Below, one piece after another: positions 19,618 to 29,619 of a stretch of 64,000 bases of DNA. The notes under the pieces were generated by a model that ran no database searches, was not told where the DNA came from, and worked only from the letters and a program-made list of their open reading frames with translations. Made by a program: the position numbers and the translations under genes. This DNA is from Actinomycetota bacterium (GTDB lineage: Bacteria; Actinomycetota; Acidimicrobiia; Acidimicrobiales; Ilumatobacteraceae), in contig VFZC01000003.1 of the NCBI GenBank assembly GCA_016871355.1, positions 1-64,000 on the forward strand, read 5' to 3'. How positions within the stretch are numbered: position 1 is the stretch's first letter; every line of letters begins with the position of its first letter.

Positions 19618-19958
19618 TCTGACGAACCCTTTCCGTTCGCTCCGTCCTTTTGCATGGTGGCCCACAGACCGTGTTCGTGCAGGCGGAACACGTCCATTTC
19701 GGCTTTCTCACGCGATCCGCTGCTCACGACGGCTTTGCCTTTGTGGTGCACGTCGAGCATGAGTTCGGTGGCCTTCTGCAGGCTGTAGCCGAATAACTTC
19801 TGGAGCACGTACGTGACGTAGCTCATGAGGTTGATCGGGTCGTTCCAGACCAGGACCACCCACGGATTGTCGGGCGCAACGGTTTCGTCGTCACGCTGAT
19901 CGGGTTTCTCGATCGTGGAGGGTGCCGCGGCGACCAGAGTCACGAACTCGATGCCCAC
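19614..19958 (-). CDS. clpS: ClpS, N-end-rule adaptor for ClpAP/ClpCP
   Basis: Small adaptor that hands proteins with destabilising N-terminal residues to the Clp protease. [20 protein letters not shown] is the family core; the NDP/hydrophobic pocket and the later [12 protein letters not shown] are intact. It has a 35-residue N-terminal extension, flexible and acidic, as is normal for ClpS. The GTG at 19958 is the first good start. It is divergent from ctaB with only 53 bases between, so their promoters must lie close together. Confidence 0.95.
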
Positions 19959-20011
19959 AGTTCCATTGTCGCGGTTGGCCAGGGGTTTCGCACCCCCGTA
20001 CCATCACGGTG

Positions 20012-20956
20012 ATGGCAACGCGCCCCCTCGTCCCGTCCCGGTTGGCTCCGGGTGGCGTGGCAGCCCATGGTCCTCGTCGCGCGCCGCGCTCGGTTCTGGG
20101 CGGCTATCTCGCTCTCACCAAGCCCCGGATCATCGAACTGCTCCTTATCACCACCGTTCCCACCATGGTGCTGGCCGAGCAGGGTTGGCCGAGTTGGGGT
20201 CTGCTTCTCATCACCTTGTTGGGCGGGAGCCTGGCCGCCGGTGGCGCCAACGCCATCAACATGGTCGTCGACCGCGACATCGACCAGTTGATGGAACGAA
20301 CCCGCAACCGGCCCCTCGTCACGGGCCTCATCGCCCCGCGCTCGGCCCTGGTTTTCGCCCTGGCCCTCGAGGCCCTGGCCTTCGCCGTGTTGTGGGCCGG
20401 AGCCAATCTGCTCTCGGCCGTGCTGGCCCTGTCGGCCACCCTCTTCTACGTCTTCGTCTACACCTTGTGGCTGAAGCGAACCAGCCGTCAGAACATCGTG
20501 ATCGGCGGGGCGGCCGGGGCCGTCCCGGTGCTGGTGGGCTGGGCGGCGGTCCGAAATTCGCTCGATTGGGAGCCATGTGTCCTGTTCACAGCTATTTTCC
20601 TGTGGACCCCGCCGCACTTCTGGGCCCTGGCCATCCGCCACGCCGACGACTACCGGGCGGCCAAGGTGCCGATGCTCCCGACCGTCTCCACCATGGCCAC
20701 CACGGTGCGTCACATGTTCACATACACCGTCGTTCTGACCGCCAGCACCCTCGTTCTGGCCCCGGTGGCCGACCTCGGACCCGTGTATTGGGTCTCGGCC
20801 CTGGTGCTGGGTCTCGGGTTCATGCTCGGCACCATCGACCTCGGTCGGAACCCGACTCCGGCCCGATCGATGCGCCTGTTCGCCTTTTCGATCTCGTACG
20901 TGACGGTTCTCTTCGTCGCGATGGCGGCCGACGTTCTCATCCGTCACGGGGTGTGA
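20012..20956 (+). CDS. ctaB: Protohaem IX farnesyltransferase (haem O synthase)
   Basis: UbiA-family membrane prenyltransferase making haem O, the precursor of the haem A used by the oxidase encoded downstream. NMVVDRDIDQLMERT supplies the Asp-rich prenyl-diphosphate motif. TPPHFWALAI with the following DDYRAAKVPMLP is the second conserved loop. About nine hydrophobic helices are visible. The ATG at 20012 (GTG at 20009 also possible) precedes a 30-residue basic leader. It heads the cytochrome oxidase region and is separated by 149 bases from the next gene. Confidence 0.95.
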   Translation: MATRPLVPSRLAPGGVAAHGPRRAPRSVLGGYLALTKPRIIELLLITTVPTMVLAEQGWPSWGLLLITLLGGSLAAGGANAINMVVDRDIDQLMERTRNRPLVTGLIAPRSALVFALALEALAFAVLWAGANLLSAVLALSATLFYVFVYTLWLKRTSRQNIVIGGAAGAVPVLVGWAAVRNSLDWEPCVLFTAIFLWTPPHFWALAIRHADDYRAAKVPMLPTVSTMATTVRHMFTYTVVLTASTLVLAPVADLGPVYWVSALVLGLGFMLGTIDLGRNPTPARSMRLFAFSISYVTVLFVAMAADVLIRHGV

Positions 20957-21105: not shown

Positions 21106-22722
21106 ATGACATCCACCGAGACCCACCATGCGGCTGGAGCAGCGTCGTCGTCCGACGCGCCTGCCATCGCTGCGTGGCTCACCACCGCCGATCACAAGCA
21201 GGTCGGTCGCCTCTTCATCGGCACCGGTCTTTTCGGCCTGCTCGGCGGACTCGTTCTCGCCGTGCTCGTCGCGTCCGAACGCATCGATGCCGAGGGCTTC
21301 CAACTCCTCGACTCCGGTTCGGCCACACAGGTGTTGTCAGCGGCCCGACTCCTTCTCACGTTCGGTGCGGTTGCGCCTCTCGTGATGGGTCTGGCCGTGG
21401 CCATCGTTCCGTTGCAGTTGGGTTCGCGTTCCATCGCGTTCCCGCGGGTCGCGGCCAGCGGTTTCTGGATGTGGCTCACCGGTCTCACGCTGTCGGTGGT
21501 CGCCATCATCGGTAACGGTGGCCCGTCGGGTGGCGAATCCGAAATGGTCGATCTGTATCTGGCCGCGTCGGTAGTGATGGTTCTCGGTCTGGCTATGGCT
21601 GCGCTGTCCATCGCCGTCACCGGGCTCACATCGCGCACTCCCGGCATGGGATTGCTGCGCGCACCGTTCTTCTCGTGGTCGTCGTTCGTCGGATCGATCG
21701 CCCTGCTCATGAGCTTGCCGGTGTTCATCGGAACATCGGTGTACCTCTACGTCGATCATCGGTACGCACGAGCCGCGTTCGGTGGCAACTTCGGTGTGAA
21801 CAACTGGGTCGGTTGGGCCATCTCGCAGCCGTTCACCTATGTGCTCGCCATTCCGATCCTGGGCTTCGTACTCGACGCGGTGCCGGTGCTCGGTCGCACA
21901 CGTTTGGCTCAGCGTCCGGCCGCCAACGTTGCCGTCGGCCTGGTGTCGGTCGCGATCTTCGCGTCGCTCACGCATCGCGCGGTCACGTTGCCGTGGGACG
22001 GTGACGGATTCTTCTCGGGCCTCGGCACCAAGATCGCCGACCTTCTGCCGTTCGGACTCGTCAACGTGATTCCGCTGTTGGGTCTGCTCGGTGTGCTCGG
22101 TCTCACCCTGCTCACGCTCAAGAGCGCCAAGCCCATGCTGGCCGCGCCGCTTCCGTTCGCCGTGCTCGGCTTGCTCATGATTCTTCTCGGCGCCACATCG
22201 CACCTTCTGTACACCGTCGAAGACGCCGCACTCGGCGGCACCATCTTCGAAGCCGGCTCGTACGTGGCCGTCACGTTCGGCACCGTGCTCCTGGCGTTCG
22301 GTGGCCTCACTTACTGGGGTCCGAAGTTGTGGGGTCGTCGCATCCCCGACAAGGCGGCGCTTCCGCTCGCTCTGCTCGGTTTCGTGGCCACCGCCCTCGG
22401 CTCGTTGTCGTACATGATCGCGGGCTTCGCCGATCAGCCGGCGGGTGTGGTCGACGGCTTCGCGTACAGCGGTCCGCAAGAACTCTGGAACGTCATCACC
22501 ACCGGCGCGTTCGCACTCATGTTGCTCGTGAGTCTCGCGTTCGTCGGCCTGGCCGTGCGAAGTTTCACTGCGGGTGAAGCCGCGGGTGACGACCCGTGGG
22601 ATGGCACCACTCTCGAGTGGGCGACGTCGTCGCCGCCGCCCGCCGACAACTTCTCCGATCTGATCGTGGTCGGTTCGGAGTATCCGCTCGCAGACATCAA
22701 GAACTCAGGGAAGGTTGGCTGA
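21106..22722 (+). CDS. Degenerate cytochrome c oxidase subunit I paralogue
   Basis: 538 residues, about 12-14 membrane helices. It is clearly homologous to subunit I (PLQLGSRSIAFPR, ASGFWMWL, and a C-terminal LEWATSSPPPADNF matching LEWMTSSPPAEHNF of the true CtaD in this window). By eye alignment, five of six metal-ligand histidines are replaced: helix II by Ala80, the HPEVY His by Gln241 (Tyr245 kept), the second His of HH by Arg291, and the two of HFH by Ser385 and Val387. Only His290 remains. It therefore cannot bind haem a, haem a3 or CuB in the normal way. The ATG at 21106 is preferred over an upstream in-frame start. It overlaps the subunit III-like gene (TGATG). Confidence 0.85.
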   Translation: MTSTETHHAAGAASSSDAPAIAAWLTTADHKQVGRLFIGTGLFGLLGGLVLAVLVASERIDAEGFQLLDSGSATQVLSAARLLLTFGAVAPLVMGLAVAIVPLQLGSRSIAFPRVAASGFWMWLTGLTLSVVAIIGNGGPSGGESEMVDLYLAASVVMVLGLAMAALSIAVTGLTSRTPGMGLLRAPFFSWSSFVGSIALLMSLPVFIGTSVYLYVDHRYARAAFGGNFGVNNWVGWAISQPFTYVLAIPILGFVLDAVPVLGRTRLAQRPAANVAVGLVSVAIFASLTHRAVTLPWDGDGFFSGLGTKIADLLPFGLVNVIPLLGLLGVLGLTLLTLKSAKPMLAAPLPFAVLGLLMILLGATSHLLYTVEDAALGGTIFEAGSYVAVTFGTVLLAFGGLTYWGPKLWGRRIPDKAALPLALLGFVATALGSLSYMIAGFADQPAGVVDGFAYSGPQELWNVITTGAFALMLLVSLAFVGLAVRSFTAGEAAGDDPWDGTTLEWATSSPPPADNFSDLIVVGSEYPLADIKNSGKVG

Positions 22723-23321
22723 TGCTCACGCTGCCCCCCTCACCTCAGCCGGCTCCGAAGCGTCAAGTCTTCGTGGGCACGGCGTTGGTCTCGGCCGCCG
22801 CAACGATGCTCGTCGGTGGAATGCTCGCCATCTGGTCGCAGTTCCGCGCCGATGCGCCGTTCCGCGAGTCGCCGCGTCGTGGTCCCATCAAGGACTGGAT
22901 GCCCAAGGACATCGTGGTTCCCGAAGTGGCCGCCAACATGATGCTCATCGCGTTCTTCGTGGTGTGCGTCATGGCTCAGTGGGCCGTGTGGTCGGCCAAG
23001 CGCAACGATCGTCAGCACGCGGGTATGGCGCTCGGCATGACGTTGCTCATGGGCCTGGCCACACTCAACGCTCAGCTCTTCATCTGGTCGCAGATGGGTG
23101 TCGACGTTCGCGGTGGCGCTTTCAATTCGATGTTCTACGCGATCACCGGCGTGATGACCTTCTTGGTGATCGCCGGACTCGTGTACACGGCGGTTGCCAC
23201 GTTCCGTTACCTCGGTCGCGGCAACTCCGATGTGCCGACTCTGTCGGCACATGCCCTCTATTGGTACTTCCTCACGGTGGCCTTCACCGCCGTGTGGTTC
23301 GTGGTGTACGTGCAGAAGTGA
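22722..23321 (+). CDS. Cytochrome c oxidase subunit III-like membrane protein (divergent)
   Basis: 199 residues with five hydrophobic helices. The C-terminus AHALYWYFLTVAFTAVWFVVY parallels the LYWHFVDIIWIVIFTLVY end of the true CtaE in this window. The family's conserved G-x-H-G-x-H loop is replaced by FNSMFYAITGVMTF, so it is a divergent paralogue like its neighbour. The ATG at 22722 has AGGGAAGG upstream and overlaps the stop of the subunit I-like gene by one base. The two probably assemble together. Confidence 0.78.
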   Translation: MLTLPPSPQPAPKRQVFVGTALVSAAATMLVGGMLAIWSQFRADAPFRESPRRGPIKDWMPKDIVVPEVAANMMLIAFFVVCVMAQWAVWSAKRNDRQHAGMALGMTLLMGLATLNAQLFIWSQMGVDVRGGAFNSMFYAITGVMTFLVIAGLVYTAVATFRYLGRGNSDVPTLSAHALYWYFLTVAFTAVWFVVYVQK

Positions 23322-23330
23322 CGAGGCGAC

Positions 23331-24479
23331 ATGATGATCACCACTAGTTCCAAGCTTCTCTACGGGCTCGGAGCGGGTTCGCTCGCGGCCGGCTTCGTCT
23401 GGTTCATCACCAACGAGGGTCAGCAACTCGGCTCGGTGATGTTCGCGTTCCTCGCCGTTGCGTTCATCTTCATGGGTGCCATCGCGTCGTACACGCGCGA
23501 CGGTCATATTCTGTCCACCGACACCTCTGCACATGGTTCGTCCGCGGCCGCCCAGAAGTCGGTTGGCCGCAGCCTGTGGCCCTTCGGCACCGCGGTGTCG
23601 GCTGGCGTCACGGTGGTGGGCCTCATCAGTTCACCCGGCATCTTCAAGGTCGGTGTGGCTCTGCTCATCGCGATGTTGGCCGAGTGGATGGTCAGCAACT
23701 GGGCCGAGCGCGCCTCGGCGAGCAACGAGTACAACATCAAGGTTCGCGACTACATCGTGCACCCGCTCGAGCTGCCGATTGCCGGTGCGTTGTTGCTGTC
23801 GGTGATCGTGTTGTCGATGTCGCGGGTGTTCCTTGCGCTCGATAAGTCGGCTGGGGCGATCGTGTTCGCGGTTGCCGGCGCCGTCATCTTGTTCTTCGGC
23901 ACTCTCATCGCTCTTCGTCGTGACGTGAACCGTCGCGTGGTCGGCGGGATTCTTGGCGTGGTTCTCCTCGCCTTGGCCGGAACCGGTGTGGCTACCGCTC
24001 TCGATGGTGAGCGCGAGCAACTCGTCGAGGCTGCCGAAGAAGATCACTTCGCCCATCGCGGTTGCACGGAGGAAAAGGAGTACTCCGACAAGAAGGCATC
24101 GCGCGCGGTTGCCATGAAGAGCAGTGTTCAGGCCGCGGTGATTCTTTCCGATGAAGGTGTGCTCTACGCCGAAGTCGATGGATACGAAACCGCTCAGACG
24201 GCCATCACCCTTCAGCGGTCCAACCCGTCCACCATCTTGTTCATCAACGAAACCGACGATGCCCGACGCATGGTGTTGAGCTACGGCAAGGTCGTCGAAG
24301 ATCTCGGTGGAGGCGTCGAGAAGGAAACCGCGCTCGAAGCCTGCACCTCCAAAGTCGAAAAGGGTGGCCAGCAGGCTGTCACCGTCGTGATTCCCAAGCC
24401 GTCGTCGGCCAGCGACGAACCTTTCACCATCACCGTGCCCGGAGTCGACGGCGCCAAGATCGACGTCTTCGTCCCGTGA
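23331..24479 (+). CDS. Polytopic membrane protein with cupredoxin-like extracytoplasmic tail
   Basis: 382 residues. The first 230 hold about seven hydrophobic helices. The first two resemble the small subunit IV of caa3 oxidases. The last 140 residues are soluble and strand-rich: ITLQRSNPSTILFINETDD looks like the entry of a cupredoxin fold, but the copper-binding His is not where expected and only scattered Cys residues occur (GCTEEK, EACTSK). I cannot assign a function. Position between the degenerate subunits and ctaC (GTGA overlap with an in-frame upstream start of ctaC) argues that it belongs to the same complex. The start ATG has GAGG just upstream. Confidence 0.6.
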   Translation: MMITTSSKLLYGLGAGSLAAGFVWFITNEGQQLGSVMFAFLAVAFIFMGAIASYTRDGHILSTDTSAHGSSAAAQKSVGRSLWPFGTAVSAGVTVVGLISSPGIFKVGVALLIAMLAEWMVSNWAERASASNEYNIKVRDYIVHPLELPIAGALLLSVIVLSMSRVFLALDKSAGAIVFAVAGAVILFFGTLIALRRDVNRRVVGGILGVVLLALAGTGVATALDGEREQLVEAAEEDHFAHRGCTEEKEYSDKKASRAVAMKSSVQAAVILSDEGVLYAEVDGYETAQTAITLQRSNPSTILFINETDDARRMVLSYGKVVEDLGGGVEKETALEACTSKVEKGGQQAVTVVIPKPSSASDEPFTITVPGVDGAKIDVFVP

Positions 24480-24526
24480 GTGAGAACACCATGTCAACCT
24501 CGTCGCAACCATCTTCCGGAGATCCG

Positions 24527-25741
24527 ATGAACAACCCCCGTCGTCGTCGTGTTCTGACTCTTGCTGGCATCGCCGCTGGCCTGCTCACCCTGGCGGGCTG
24601 CGCCAAGGACGCTCCGCAGGACACCTGGCAGCCCGCTGGCCCCAACGCCGAGATGATCGACAACCTCCAGCAACCGGTGTTCCTGGTGGCAGGCATCGTC
24701 GGAGTGATCGTCATGGCCGCCGTCGCGTGGGCAGTGTTCCGTTATCGCGATCGTGGTCAGGCGATCCCTGAGCAGACGCACGGTAAGCCCGCCATCGAAA
24801 TCACGCTCACGATCATTCCGGTCCTCATCCTGATTGGTGTGGCCATCCCGACTACCAGCACGATCTTCGATCTGGCCAAGACCGACGACACCGAGATGGT
24901 CATCAACGTGACCGGTCAGCAGTGGTGGTGGGAGTACGACTATCCGGCCATCGGTGACAACGCCGACAAGTACGGGCTCAGCCAGCCGATCGTCACCTCG
25001 GGCCAGTTGGTCATACCGGAGAACACCAAGGTGCTTCTCCGCGTCACCAGTCGCGACGTGATCCACTCGTACTGGATCCCCAAGTTGAACGGCAAGAAGG
25101 ACGGTGTACCCGGTCGCGTGCACCTGCTCCGCCTCGAAGGGTCGAAGCCCGGTATTTACGCCGGCCAATGCACCGAGTTCTGCGGTCTGTCTCATTCGTA
25201 CATGCGCATGGAGACGATCGTGTTGAAGCGCGCCGACTTCGATGTGTGGGTCGCCAACCAGTTGGCCCCGTACGAGTCGCCGGCCGAGGGCACCTTGGCC
25301 AAGGAAGGCGAATCGCTCTACATCCAGCAGTGCAGTCGTTGCCATCAGGTGAACGGACTCGCCGATGCCGAGGGCAACCTCATCGTGTCGGCCCCCGAGC
25401 AGTACGTGGTGTCGGGAGCCGCGCCCAACCTCACCAATCTCATGACTCGAATCACGTTCGCCGGTGCGTCATGGGATCTTCTCACTCAGCAGTGTCGTGA
25501 CGACGTCTGGAAAGCGTCGGCTAATGAGTTCGGCGCGAAGTACCTCAGCGGTGTGAGCGCCGATTGTCTCAACCAAAAGGACCTCCGCGAGTGGCTACGC
25601 AACTCACCGGAGAAGAAGCCCATGTATGTCGACCCCACCAAGTTGCAGGAGACCAACGGTAAGTACCGCGGTATGCCCGCACTCGGCTTGACCGAAGATC
25701 AGATCGACGCCCTCGTGGCCTATCTGCTCGAGCGGAAGTAA
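24527..25741 (+). CDS. ctaC: caa3 cytochrome c oxidase subunit II with fused cytochrome c
   Basis: A lipoprotein signal (RRRRVLTLAGIAAGLLTLAGC) is followed by two membrane helices, a cupredoxin domain and a C-terminal cytochrome c. CuA ligands are present in VIHSYWIP and QCTEFCGLSHSYMRM. The haem site is CSRCH and the likely distal Met is in RGMPALG. Between them is an insert of about 25 residues with two extra Cys. ATG 24527 is chosen because GGAG lies 6 bases upstream and it gives a clean signal peptide; an in-frame GTG at 24476 overlaps the previous stop. It receives electrons from soluble or membrane cytochrome c and passes them to CtaD. Confidence 0.95.
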   Translation: MNNPRRRRVLTLAGIAAGLLTLAGCAKDAPQDTWQPAGPNAEMIDNLQQPVFLVAGIVGVIVMAAVAWAVFRYRDRGQAIPEQTHGKPAIEITLTIIPVLILIGVAIPTTSTIFDLAKTDDTEMVINVTGQQWWWEYDYPAIGDNADKYGLSQPIVTSGQLVIPENTKVLLRVTSRDVIHSYWIPKLNGKKDGVPGRVHLLRLEGSKPGIYAGQCTEFCGLSHSYMRMETIVLKRADFDVWVANQLAPYESPAEGTLAKEGESLYIQQCSRCHQVNGLADAEGNLIVSAPEQYVVSGAAPNLTNLMTRITFAGASWDLLTQQCRDDVWKASANEFGAKYLSGVSADCLNQKDLREWLRNSPEKKPMYVDPTKLQETNGKYRGMPALGLTEDQIDALVAYLLERK

Positions 25742-25754
25742 GGAGAACAACGAG

Positions 25755-27770
25755 ATGGCCATCATCGAACGTCCCTCCACCGAGATCGCCGTTGCCGGCG
25801 GTGCCACAGTGGGTGTGAAGCCAAGTGAGGCACTGGGTGTTTTCAAGCGCCCGGCGGCCAGCAACTCGTGGCGCGACTGGATCGTCACGGTCGACCACAA
25901 GAAGCTCGGCATCATGTACGGCGTTGCCGCCTTTGCGTTCTTCATCATCGGCGGTGTCGAGGCCCTGCTGATTCGTCTGCAGCTCATGGGCCCGGACGGC
26001 AAGGTGCTCAGCGCCGACCAGTACAACCAGATGTTCACGATGCACGCCACCACGATGGTGTTCCTCTTCGTGATGCCGATGGTGTCGGCCTTCGCCAACT
26101 ACTTCATTCCCTTGCAGATCGGTGCCCGCGACGTGGCGTTCCCACGCATCAACGCCTTCGGCTTCTGGTGCTGGCTCTTCGGTGGCATCTTCCTCAACAC
26201 GTCATGGTTCTTGGGTGGTGCAGCCGATGGTGGCTGGTTCATGTACGCTCCCAACTCGAGCACACTGTTCTCGCCCAGTCACGGAGTCGACTTCTGGGTG
26301 CTCGGTCTGCAGATCACGGGTATCGCGTCCCTCACCGGTGCCATCAACTTGATCGTGACCGTGCTCAACATGCGAGCCCCCGGCATGAAGCTCATGCGCA
26401 TGCCGATCTTCACCTGGATGGCTCTGGTGGTTCAGTTCCTGCTGCTGTTCGCCATGCCCGTCATCACGGTCGCCTTGTTCTTGCTCTCGTTCCAGCGAAC
26501 GTTCGATGCGACGTTCTTCGACGTGGCGGCTGGTGCCGACCCGCTCTTGTGGCAGCACTTGTTCTGGATCTTCGGTCACCCCGAGGTGTACATCTTGATC
26601 TTGCCGTCCTTCGGCATCGTGTCCGAAGTGATCCCGGTGTTCTCGAAGAAGCCTCTGTTCGGTTATCCGATCGTGGCCATGTCGGGTGCGGCCATCGGTT
26701 TCGTCGGATGGGGTGTGTGGGCTCACCACATGTTCGCCTCGGGCCTCGGACCGGTTTCGGTCGCCGTGTTCTCGATGGCCACCATGGCCATCGCGGTTCC
26801 CACCGGCGTCAAGATCGTCAACTGGGTCATGACCATGTGGGGCGGCAAGTTGAAGTTCTCGGTCGCCATGCTCTTCGCCATCGGTTTGGTGGTTCAGTTC
26901 ACCATCGGTGGTCTGTCGGGCGTGACCCACTCGGTGGCTCCGAGCGACACGCAGCAGACCGACACGTACTACATCGTCGCCCACTTCCATTACGTGTTGT
27001 TCGGTGGCGCGATCTTCGGTCTGTTCGCCGGCTTCTACTACTGGTGGCCGAAGATGTTCCGCAAGCAGCTCAACGAGGGACTGGGCCAGTGGAACTTCTG
27101 GCTCATGGTCATCGGTATGAACATGACCTTCGGACCCATGCACATCCTTGGATTGCAAGGTCAGCCGCGTCGTATGGGGGTCTGGACCGAAGCCCGCGCC
27201 GGAGAGGGTTTCTTCAACATCGGCTTCTGGAACATGATCGCCTCGATCGGCTCGCTGATCCTCGCCGTGGGTGTTTTGTTGTTCATCATCAACATCGTGT
27301 ACACCCACAAGTCGAAGCGCGTTCCGATCGCGCCGCTCGACCCGTGGGACGCCCGTTCACTCGAGTGGATGACCTCGAGCCCGCCGGCCGAGCACAACTT
27401 CGACGCGATCCCCGCGATCAACCACCTCGACGAGTTCTTCCACCGCAAGTACGCGGAAGATCCCACGACTCACGAGATCAAGCAGGTCGCCACGGCCGAA
27501 GAAGTCCTCGCCGACATGAATGCACATCCCGATGAGCACATCCACATGCCGTCGCGTTCGTATTGGCCGATCCTCGTCGCCTTGGCGCTTCCGATCATCT
27601 GCTACGGCCTCATCTACAACCGTCTCCTGATGGCTGTGGGTGCGGCGTTCTTGTTGCTCACCATGTTCGGTTGGGCCATGGAACCGTCGACGGCACCCGA
27701 TGACGATTTCGATCCCCCGGCACCTAGTGAAGGTGGCGGTCACACGAAGGAGTTGGCACCCCTTGGCTGA
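25755..27770 (+). CDS. ctaD: Cytochrome c oxidase subunit I
   Basis: Catalytic subunit of the aa3 oxidase. All ligands are intact: His97 (MFTMHATT, haem a), His275 and the cross-linked Tyr279 (GHPEVY), His324/His325 (AHH, CuB), His410 (haem a3) and His412 (haem a) in AHFHY. With 671 residues it is longer than the classic subunit because of extra C-terminal helices (SYWPILVALALPIICY), as in other caa3 enzymes. AAGGAG precedes the ATG. The 3' end overlaps ctaE. Confidence 0.97.
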   Translation: MAIIERPSTEIAVAGGATVGVKPSEALGVFKRPAASNSWRDWIVTVDHKKLGIMYGVAAFAFFIIGGVEALLIRLQLMGPDGKVLSADQYNQMFTMHATTMVFLFVMPMVSAFANYFIPLQIGARDVAFPRINAFGFWCWLFGGIFLNTSWFLGGAADGGWFMYAPNSSTLFSPSHGVDFWVLGLQITGIASLTGAINLIVTVLNMRAPGMKLMRMPIFTWMALVVQFLLLFAMPVITVALFLLSFQRTFDATFFDVAAGADPLLWQHLFWIFGHPEVYILILPSFGIVSEVIPVFSKKPLFGYPIVAMSGAAIGFVGWGVWAHHMFASGLGPVSVAVFSMATMAIAVPTGVKIVNWVMTMWGGKLKFSVAMLFAIGLVVQFTIGGLSGVTHSVAPSDTQQTDTYYIVAHFHYVLFGGAIFGLFAGFYYWWPKMFRKQLNEGLGQWNFWLMVIGMNMTFGPMHILGLQGQPRRMGVWTEARAGEGFFNIGFWNMIASIGSLILAVGVLLFIINIVYTHKSKRVPIAPLDPWDARSLEWMTSSPPAEHNFDAIPAINHLDEFFHRKYAEDPTTHEIKQVATAEEVLADMNAHPDEHIHMPSRSYWPILVALALPIICYGLIYNRLLMAVGAAFLLLTMFGWAMEPSTAPDDDFDPPAPSEGGGHTKELAPLG

Positions 27771-28371
27771 CACCGTAGTTGCCCACGGCGCCGATCACGG
27801 CGCGCATCACACCACGACGGGCTTGTCGAACAACAAGCTCGGCATGTGGGTGTTCCTCGGTTCCGAGTGCTTGCTCTTCGGCGGACTCATCTCCACCTAC
27901 ATGCTGTACCGCGGTCGTGCCAACGCAGGCCCGCAGCCTGATCAGATCTACGACATCCCATTCACCTCGGTGAGCTCGTTCGTTCTTCTGATGAGCTCGC
28001 TCACCATGGTGTTGGCGGTGTCGGCGGCCAACCGCAAGGACGATCGCAACACCAACTTGTGGCTCACCGTCACGGCCGTCCTGGGCGCAACGTTCGTGGG
28101 CGGTCAGGTATACGAGTTCACCGCGTTCTACCGCGAGGGTCTGGGCTTCACCACCAGCCTCTTCGGCTCGAGCTTCTACACACTCACCGGTTTCCACGGT
28201 GTGCACGTGACCGTGGGCATCATCATGCTCATGGCGTTGGTCGGCATGGTGCGTCGTAATCGCATCCCGGGCAGTAAAGCCGAGACGGTCGAATTGGTCG
28301 GCCTGTACTGGCACTTCGTCGACATCATCTGGATCGTGATCTTCACGCTCGTCTACCTGATTCCGTCCTGA
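27763..28371 (+). CDS. ctaE: Cytochrome c oxidase subunit III
   Basis: Membrane subunit with five or six helices that stabilises subunit I. GSECLLFGGLISTYMLYR, SFYTLTGFHGVHVTVGI and LYWHFVDIIWIVIFTL are the family motifs. The TTG at 27763 is chosen because GAAGGAG lies about 9 bases upstream. It overlaps the ctaD stop by 8 bases. Longer in-frame starts lie inside ctaD. Confidence 0.93.
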   Translation: MADTVVAHGADHGAHHTTTGLSNNKLGMWVFLGSECLLFGGLISTYMLYRGRANAGPQPDQIYDIPFTSVSSFVLLMSSLTMVLAVSAANRKDDRNTNLWLTVTAVLGATFVGGQVYEFTAFYREGLGFTTSLFGSSFYTLTGFHGVHVTVGIIMLMALVGMVRRNRIPGSKAETVELVGLYWHFVDIIWIVIFTLVYLIPS

Positions 28372-28387: not shown

Positions 28388-28723
28388 ATGAGCACCGCAA
28401 CCGAACAGCACACTGGTCACGACGATCACGCACACGAAGAGAGCCACGGCGCCTCCGACAAGCAGTACGTGATCATCGCGCTCATCCTGGCTGCGCTCAC
28501 GGCCATCGAAGTGTCGACCTATTACATTGACTTCGGCCCGTTGTTCATGCCCACGCTCTTCGTTCTGATGATCGTGAAGTTCGTGATCGTGGTGTCGTAC
28601 TTCATGCACCTGAAGTTCGACAACAAGCTGTTCAGCTACCTCTTCTATTCGGGTCTGATCCTGGCCGTTGCCGTTTACTGCGGTGCGTTGGCCACCTTCA
28701 AGTTCTTCCTCCAGAAGGGCTGA
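28388..28723 (+). CDS. ctaF: Cytochrome c oxidase subunit IV (COX4_pro type)
   Basis: 111 residues: a His-rich N-terminus, then three membrane helices (YVIIALILAALTAIEV, PTLFVLMIVKFVIVVSYFMH, and a C-terminal helix). This is the layout of the small subunit of prokaryotic caa3 and quinol oxidases. GAGGAACCCTC precedes the ATG. It sits between ctaE and ctaG in the expected operon order. Confidence 0.88.
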   Translation: MSTATEQHTGHDDHAHEESHGASDKQYVIIALILAALTAIEVSTYYIDFGPLFMPTLFVLMIVKFVIVVSYFMHLKFDNKLFSYLFYSGLILAVAVYCGALATFKFFLQKG

Positions 28724-28725
28724 TC

Positions 28726-29619
28726 ATGCTCGCAGCCGTGGCGGTCGATCCGTGGCGCTTCCAGTCGCACATCGAGGTGTGGCTTCTGGTGGCGTTCCTC
28801 ATCGGTTCGTACGTGTATGCCGTACGAGTTCTCGGGCCCCGCGCCGTCGGTCCGGGTGAGGTGGTGGTGACGGCCGAGCAGAAGGCCGCGTTCGTCGGCG
28901 GAATCTTCGTTCTGTGGTTGGGCTCCGATTGGCCGATGCACGACATCGCCGAGGAGTATCTCTATTCGGTGCACATGTTCCAGCACATGGCGCTCACGTA
29001 CTTCATGCCGCCGTTGGTGGTGCTGGCCACGCCCGAGTGGTTCGTTCGCACGCTCATCGGTGATGGTCGTGTGTACAAATTCGTGCGGTTCATGGCGCAT
29101 CCGGTGCGCGCCGCCTTCTTCTTCAACGTGGCCGTGATGGTGAGCCACGTTCCGGGTGTGGTGAACGCATCGGTGTCCAACGGCGCCCTGCACTACAGCG
29201 TGCATGTCTTCTTGGTTCTGTCGTCCATCCTCATGTGGCTGCCGGTGGTCGGGCCGTTCCCCGAGTTCCAGATCTCACCCATGGGCAAGATGATCTATCT
29301 CTTCATGAACAGCGTAGTGGCCACGGTCCCGGCCGGTTGGCTCACCTTCGCCGAAGGCGTCGTCTACAAGCACTACAACATCCCGTGGCGCGTGTGGGGT
29401 TTGTCGGTTACCGACGATCAGCAGATCGCCGGTGCGATCATGAAGATCGGTGGTGCCGCGTTCTTGTGGTCGATTATCATCGCGATGTTCATTCGACGGT
29501 TCGTGCGTACCTTCCGGACCGAGAACGATTCGTCGTACGTGCGTCAGCCACTCACCATGGCCGATGTGGAGAAGGCGTTCGCCGAGAATCCACCGGCCCG
29601 CGAACCCGAGCCGCGCTGA
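28726..29619 (+). CDS. ctaG: caa3 oxidase assembly factor CtaG (DUF1404-type)
   Basis: 297 residues with seven or so membrane helices. MFQHMALTYFMPPLVVLATP and FMNSVVATVPAGWLTFAE are typical of the Bacillus CtaG family, needed for copper insertion or assembly of caa3 oxidase. This is a different family from mitochondrial Cox11. Two bases after ctaF, with the ATG following GGGCTGATC. It ends back to back with the convergent ABC permease gene. Confidence 0.88.
   Translation: MLAAVAVDPWRFQSHIEVWLLVAFLIGSYVYAVRVLGPRAVGPGEVVVTAEQKAAFVGGIFVLWLGSDWPMHDIAEEYLYSVHMFQHMALTYFMPPLVVLATPEWFVRTLIGDGRVYKFVRFMAHPVRAAFFFNVAVMVSHVPGVVNASVSNGALHYSVHVFLVLSSILMWLPVVGPFPEFQISPMGKMIYLFMNSVVATVPAGWLTFAEGVVYKHYNIPWRVWGLSVTDDQQIAGAIMKIGGAAFLWSIIIAMFIRRFVRTFRTENDSSYVRQPLTMADVEKAFAENPPAREPEPR

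Follow-up and report, generated by a model that had tools for sequence, protein, structure and literature searches.

The window analysed here is a 64,000-nt stretch of the genome of an Actinomycetota bacterium of the family Ilumatobacteraceae (contig VFZC01000003.1), and at positions 21106-24479 it carries an intact trio of genes between ctaB and a caa3-type oxidase operon (ctaC-D-E-IV-G). By sequence, the trio is a degenerate version of the oxidase subunits CtaD, CtaE and CtaF. We call its members shI (the ligand-less subunit I homologue), shIII (the degenerate subunit III) and P3 (the third protein), and refer to sequences of the trio type as shadows. What defines heme-copper oxidases is their metal centres; the trio fails the defining tests of an oxidase and works unlike one. 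Shadows were divided into two grades: grade A comprises 15 loci of deep-branching families (L079, L080, L083 and L165-L176), and grade B comprises 40 loci, including that of the window.

The predicted shI protein scores 106 bits against Pfam COX1 (cut-off 34.8) but only 172.7 bits against the NCBIfam CtaD equivalog (cut-off 670.75). Its identity to CtaD is 24-26%, and its closest sequence match in the PDB is an actinobacterial aa3 CtaD. All six canonical His residues (H97, H275, H324, H325, H410 and H412 in the numbering of the window CtaD) are kept in that protein and in every true oxidase of the alignment. In shI the same sites read A, Q, H, R, S and V, which bears out the initial annotation that five of the six metal ligands are gone. 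The single remaining His is Gln in 30 of the 39 grade B relatives that were aligned with 54 CtaD sequences, and in effect all six are lost from shI. In this alignment H97 is retained in 8 of 39 grade B sequences. The residues near 242 and 291 of shI, former CuB His sites, are Gln in 26 and 30 of the 39, respectively, and Gln at these two sites is a conserved replacement, not random drift. Masking of the ligands by misalignment was ruled out, as the alignment holds no conserved transmembrane His and no ligands displaced to other positions; its sole conserved His is that of an N-terminal DHK motif.

The proton paths have gone as well. The K-channel Lys (K353) and the D-channel residues D126 and N133 are lost in shI and in all 39 aligned grade B shadows, and these three residues, together with the Glu of HPEVY, are kept in no shadow sequence. 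Motifs common to shadows and true CtaD are DHK, PLQ.G....FPR, RxPGM, P.F.W and the C-terminal LEW..SPP, the last of which had been recognized from the outset. These lie in loops, helix ends and the tail, while the core is changed. An AlphaFold2 (AF2) model of shI (predicted local distance difference test score, pLDDT, 75.5; predicted template modelling score, pTM, 0.83) was matched by Foldseek to bo3/aa3 subunit I with template modelling scores of 0.83-0.84, consistent with retention of the twelve-helix oxidase fold. The alignment used as input for the model included true CtaD rows, so the fold match is a sign of consistency and no independent proof.

Intermediates in the loss of cofactors are found among the deep-branching relatives. 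The 15 grade A loci lack each of the three CuB His as well as the Lys of the K-path, and all of them have Arg where subunit I normally carries the D-path Asp, as if proton entry may have been plugged upon loss of the oxygen site; at this position most grade B sequences have Ser, Thr or Ala. In 12 of the 15 grade A loci, the His pair of the low-spin heme (transmembrane helices 2 and 10) is retained alongside an intact type-1 copper motif in the P3 of the same genome. The discordant loci are one with the His pair only and two with the copper motif only, and the motif is found in 14 of the 15. Cupredoxin_1 was over its cut-off in all three grade A loci scanned (L079, L080 and L083), and the high-spin heme His is also retained in some grade A loci. 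Neither the low-spin pair nor the copper motif is kept in any of the 40 grade B loci. In a rooted tree the shadows form one clade (support 100/100), and grade B with the window forms one clade (100/100) inside a paraphyletic grade A, the branching order of which is weakly supported. The simplest history is that CuB and the proton paths were lost once, in the common ancestor; heme and copper then disappeared together in the ancestor of grade B, and a few losses took place independently within grade A. The order of cofactor loss is shown by the sequences themselves.

The other two proteins are similarly reduced. The shIII protein exceeds the Pfam COX3 cut-off (29.3 bits against 23.8) but remains well below that of the NCBIfam CtaE equivalog (47.8 bits against 190), and alignment with CtaE confirmed that the His loop is missing, along with the acidic residues (conserved Glu) of CtaE. 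No family match of its own was found for P3 in Pfam and NCBIfam scans, and P3 did not reach the CtaF family PF12270. A P3 profile matches small CtaF (subunit IV) genes over P3 positions ~1-122 (best independent E-value 2.8e-9), and these genes lie directly after ctaD in actinobacterial-type aa3 operons of trio-less relatives. The N-terminal ~120 amino acids of P3 are homologous to CtaF over the whole CtaF length, a feature newly added to the initial description of the third gene. In Mycobacterium smegmatis, CtaE and CtaF together are the equivalent of subunit III and mediate the contact with complex III (PMC8361435); on this basis shIII and the N-terminus of P3 jointly amount to a subunit III unit, complete though degenerate. 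The trio has no canonical CuA subunit II of its own.

The C-terminal domain of P3 has a cupredoxin fold according to Foldseek (6e-5 to Cupredoxin_1 4hcf, with auracyanin and amicyanin also matched), and it is the only part of the AF2 model of P3 that is locally confident. The type-1 copper motif (H...CxxHxxM) is absent from P3 of the window and of its relatives in the same family (f1), as expected from the first description of a cupredoxin-like domain without a copper site, and the whole domain has been dropped in the grade B P3 proteins examined outside this family. Among 296 genomes searched across the phylum, full-length P3 was restricted to the order of the window. Outside this order its halves are separate, one being CtaF and the other a protein of 220-250 amino acids with three helices and a cupredoxin domain, which adjoins ctaG in those caa3 clusters that were inspected. 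Because the halves occur as separate proteins elsewhere, P3 is a fusion of CtaF with a three-helix-anchored cupredoxin.

The trio is widespread and closely tied to caa3. The gene order ctaB-shI-shIII-P3-ctaC-ctaD-ctaE recurs in dozens of loci from many families of the order (taken to be Acidimicrobiales), which excludes chance. P3 is present in 21 of 22 sampled genomes of the window's family; the exception, G161, is a 96% complete genome that lacks any COX1 family match. Of 198 genomes surveyed in the order, 122 had both P3 and caa3, 11 had P3 only (many of them fragmented assemblies), 2 had caa3 only and 63 had neither, where caa3 was called at a CtaD identity of at least 58% and "neither" denotes that both were undetected. 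The trio-less genomes that were opened have an ordinary aa3 with CtaF and no caa3. By these patterns the link of the trio to the caa3 locus is an obligate one. The trio is also present in L038, a metagenome-assembled genome whose record is titled Bifidobacterium breve and which is probably a mislabelled bin.

Ratios of nonsynonymous to synonymous substitution rates (dN/dS, NG86 method) in close pairs were 0.05-0.21 for shI, 0.03-0.19 for shIII and 0.13-0.24 for P3, compared to 0.06-0.22 for ctaB, 0.06-0.13 for ctaC and 0.04-0.09 for ctaD. NG86 values are reported since dS was near saturation in wider pairs and the YN00 method was unusable for several pairs for this reason. P3 is intact in about 131 of 133 genomes, and scattered frameshifts are absent from the relatives. 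By these values the genes of the trio are under purifying selection and are kept, and decay was rejected on the basis of P3 integrity and the dN/dS of shI, in agreement with the first impression that the trio is selected for.

The trio had initially been taken for a copy of the real oxidase beside it, and this view did not hold. When grade A was represented in the tree by its less diverged sequences, the approximately unbiased (AU) test rejected a clade with caa3 (p-AU 0.0026) and allowed one with actinobacterial-type aa3 (p-AU 0.238), although long branches call for caution with this result. A recent duplication of the neighbouring ctaD was rejected by both the tree and the test. Together with the presence of CtaF within P3, the AU result points to an aa3-type ancestor. 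The CtaF of this ancestor would have been fused to a membrane-anchored cupredoxin taken from a caa3 locus. A homologue of the C-terminal half of P3 is found as a membrane-anchored cupredoxin beside ctaG in caa3 loci of other Actinomycetota (L084-L088, L177 and L178), where it is a separate protein with an intact type-1 copper motif, whereas that of the window is fused to CtaF and copper-less.

In its subunit set of I, III and CtaF, the trio resembles the actinobacterial aa3 core CtaD/CtaE/CtaF, the partner of the cytochrome bcc complex in the M. smegmatis III2IV2 supercomplex (6hwh/6adq). It differs from this core in lacking heme and CuB ligands, proton paths and a CuA subunit II of its own, in the fusion of CtaF to a cupredoxin anchor, and in being linked to caa3 in place of bcc genes. 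The caa3 of the same operon is like the trio in adjacency, co-occurrence and fold (26% identity between the subunits I), but it is fully equipped, and the trio is not its descendant. Ligand-less CcoN-like proteins from other orders of the class share with shI the loss of all six His, but they are of the cbb3/CcoN type where shI is A-type, are mostly fused to or located beside FixO/cytochrome c, and have an independent origin. In all loci inspected (L089:3693-5819 (-) and L127-L150), none of the six His is found at the aligned positions. This CcoN-like family is matched at E<=1e-20 in 106 of 395 genomes of the class (G225 via the cupredoxin part only), in orders other than that of the window, and in L089 the protein carries a fused, intact cupredoxin and its gene directly precedes the caa3 ctaC. 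Ligand-less oxidase cores may therefore have arisen at least twice in the class, once from the A type and once from the CcoN type.

At about even confidence, we propose that the trio began as a redox relay and has since become a structural module, without cofactors, in the caa3 respirasome. In this proposal shI, shIII and P3 would form one membrane complex, a pseudo-oxidase derived from the CtaD/CtaE/CtaF core of an aa3-type oxidase. In grade A the complex would act as an electron relay, with the cupredoxin copper and one low-spin heme passing electrons into or beside caa3 and no reduction of oxygen. The window-type trio would hold no cofactor and have a structural role in the caa3 respirasome, where it would most likely dock complex III and caa3 or stabilise the contacts between them, perhaps via its CtaE/CtaF-like parts. 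A docking role is proposed because aa3 holds complex III through CtaE and CtaF in the mycobacterial supercomplex (PMC8361435); the presence of a bc complex in the window genome also speaks for the proposal. Among the functions raised in the initial annotation, a structural or accessory complex attached to caa3 is thus probably correct, given the conservation, selection and obligate linkage of the trio, while a proton channel is disfavoured by the loss of the D- and K-path residues. Somewhat more tentatively, the history may be an ordered ratchet in which an oxidase core became a cofactor-free pseudo-complex, losing the oxygen site and proton paths and then heme and copper, and ended as an obligate architectural part of the respirasome of another oxidase.

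Several points weigh against this proposal. The association of the trio with caa3 or complex III is inferred from the operon and from co-occurrence, and the co-occurrence consists of raw counts in which kinship is not corrected for. Placement of the shadow clade beside aa3 is permitted but not proven, shI evolves faster than CtaD, and the P3 model is weak (pLDDT 54). The docking analogy is also loose, as the bc complex of the window genome, with a split b6-type cytochrome b, a subunit IV-like protein, a Rieske protein and a diheme cytochrome c (G000:C3 about 91550-95030; L164:5550-9030), differs from the aa3-docking QcrB type. The best NCBIfam match of its cytochrome b is ExtP of selenite/tellurite operons. 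An actinobacterial QcrB-type bcc complex was accordingly ruled out as the partner, and for an alternative complex III no NrfD family match was found in the window genome (86% complete).

Ranked second, though unlikely, is a role in biogenesis, with the trio as a mock oxidase that serves as a template or chaperone for heme and copper insertion or subunit assembly of caa3. Such a role requires no cofactor and would suit a trio that always lies between the heme o synthase gene ctaB and ctaC, with ctaG at the end of the operon, and gene duplication has been discussed as a source of biogenesis factors (PMC9145763). A chaperone, however, has no obvious need for homologues of I, III and IV together or for an early stage with heme and type-1 copper. 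That early stage, and the retention of H97 in some grade B sequences, could instead suggest that the window-type trio is still a redox device that passes electrons or binds another cofactor, such as a quinone or a heme held by other residues. This is improbable, as the only His conserved in grade B is that of the N-terminal DHK, the cupredoxin ligands have been lost from f1, and other families of grade B lack the domain.

A regulatory, sensory or immunity-like role, for example as competitor subunits that tune caa3 assembly, is about equally improbable: paralogous subunits could swap with CtaD and CtaE, but a complex in its own right is suggested by the low identity to CtaD and by the presence of a subunit III and a subunit IV within the trio. 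The retained twelve-helix fold would be compatible with a proton or ion channel or an uncoupling valve derived from the oxidase, which we consider very improbable since the residues of both paths and the HPEVY Glu are kept in no shadow and the mouth of the D-path carries Arg in all of grade A. Least credible of all is a decaying relic without function. The loss of all catalytic ligands and the faster evolution relative to ctaD are what such a relic would show, but the genes are intact and under low dN/dS, and their order has been kept across many families despite the loss of cofactors in the common ancestor of these families.

At the level of the locus (Table 1), the trio is intact and located as first described, while the reported overlap of its genes holds at two of three junctions. 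The shI gene runs from an ATG at 21106 to a stop at 22720-22722 and overlaps shIII by one base (TGATG, with the ATG at 22722). The shIII stop at 23319-23321 is separated by 9 bases from P3, which starts with an ATG at 23331/23334, ends with a stop at 24477-24479 and overlaps the GTG start of ctaC at 24476 by 4 bases. The C-terminal extension of the caa3 CtaD (window:27534-27690) matches half of Pfam Cyt_c_ox_IV (CtaF).

Table 1 Genes and protein parts of the trio and the adjoining caa3 operon in the window
Feature	Position	Strand	Evidence
ctaB, heme o synthase; conserved neighbour on the upstream side of the trio	19922..20956	+	NCBIfam PRK04375, 384 bits, over cut-off; conserved order
shI, ligand-less subunit I (pseudo-CtaD), 538 aa	21106..22722	+	Pfam COX1 2e-30; His loss; AF2/Foldseek fold
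shIII, degenerate subunit III (pseudo-CtaE), 199 aa	22722..23321	+	Pfam COX3 over cut-off; alignment; best NCBIfam match actinobacterial CtaE, far below cut-off
P3, CtaF-like N-terminus, three further helices and degenerate cupredoxin domain, ~381 aa	23334..24479	+	P3 profile against CtaF; halves separate in other classes; fold
P3 part, CtaF-like region, about residues 1-122	23334..23700	+	Profile matches to CtaF genes
P3 part, cupredoxin-like beta domain lacking Cu ligands, about residues 266-382	24126..24476	+	AF2 strands; Foldseek; Cu motif in grade A only
ctaC, caa3 subunit II, CuA domain and C-terminal cytochrome c	24476..25741	+	Family profile matches
ctaD, true caa3 subunit I, all six His	25755..27770	+	TIGR02891, 681 bits, over cut-off; alignment
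ctaE, true subunit III; real start probably downstream of ctaD stop	27640..28371 (open reading frame as listed)	+	Open reading frame list; Pfam
caa3 subunit IV (COX4_pro)	28388..28723	+	Pfam
ctaG, caa3 assembly factor	28726..29619	+	Pfam

Pseudoenzymes are a known kind of protein, but retention of an entire oxidase core without cofactors next to another oxidase is, to our knowledge, a new form of it. No description of a ligand-less oxidase subunit I in these bacteria was found in a literature search limited to open-licence PMC papers. Annotation pipelines that go by matches to the COX1 and COX3 profiles are likely to mistake the trio for an additional terminal oxidase. By retaining subunits I, III and IV over long evolutionary times with no metal site, the clade separates architecture from catalysis in nature, and its surviving intermediates make the order of loss readable. 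It also provides a testable case of what subunits I and III and CtaF give to the building of a supercomplex apart from chemistry.

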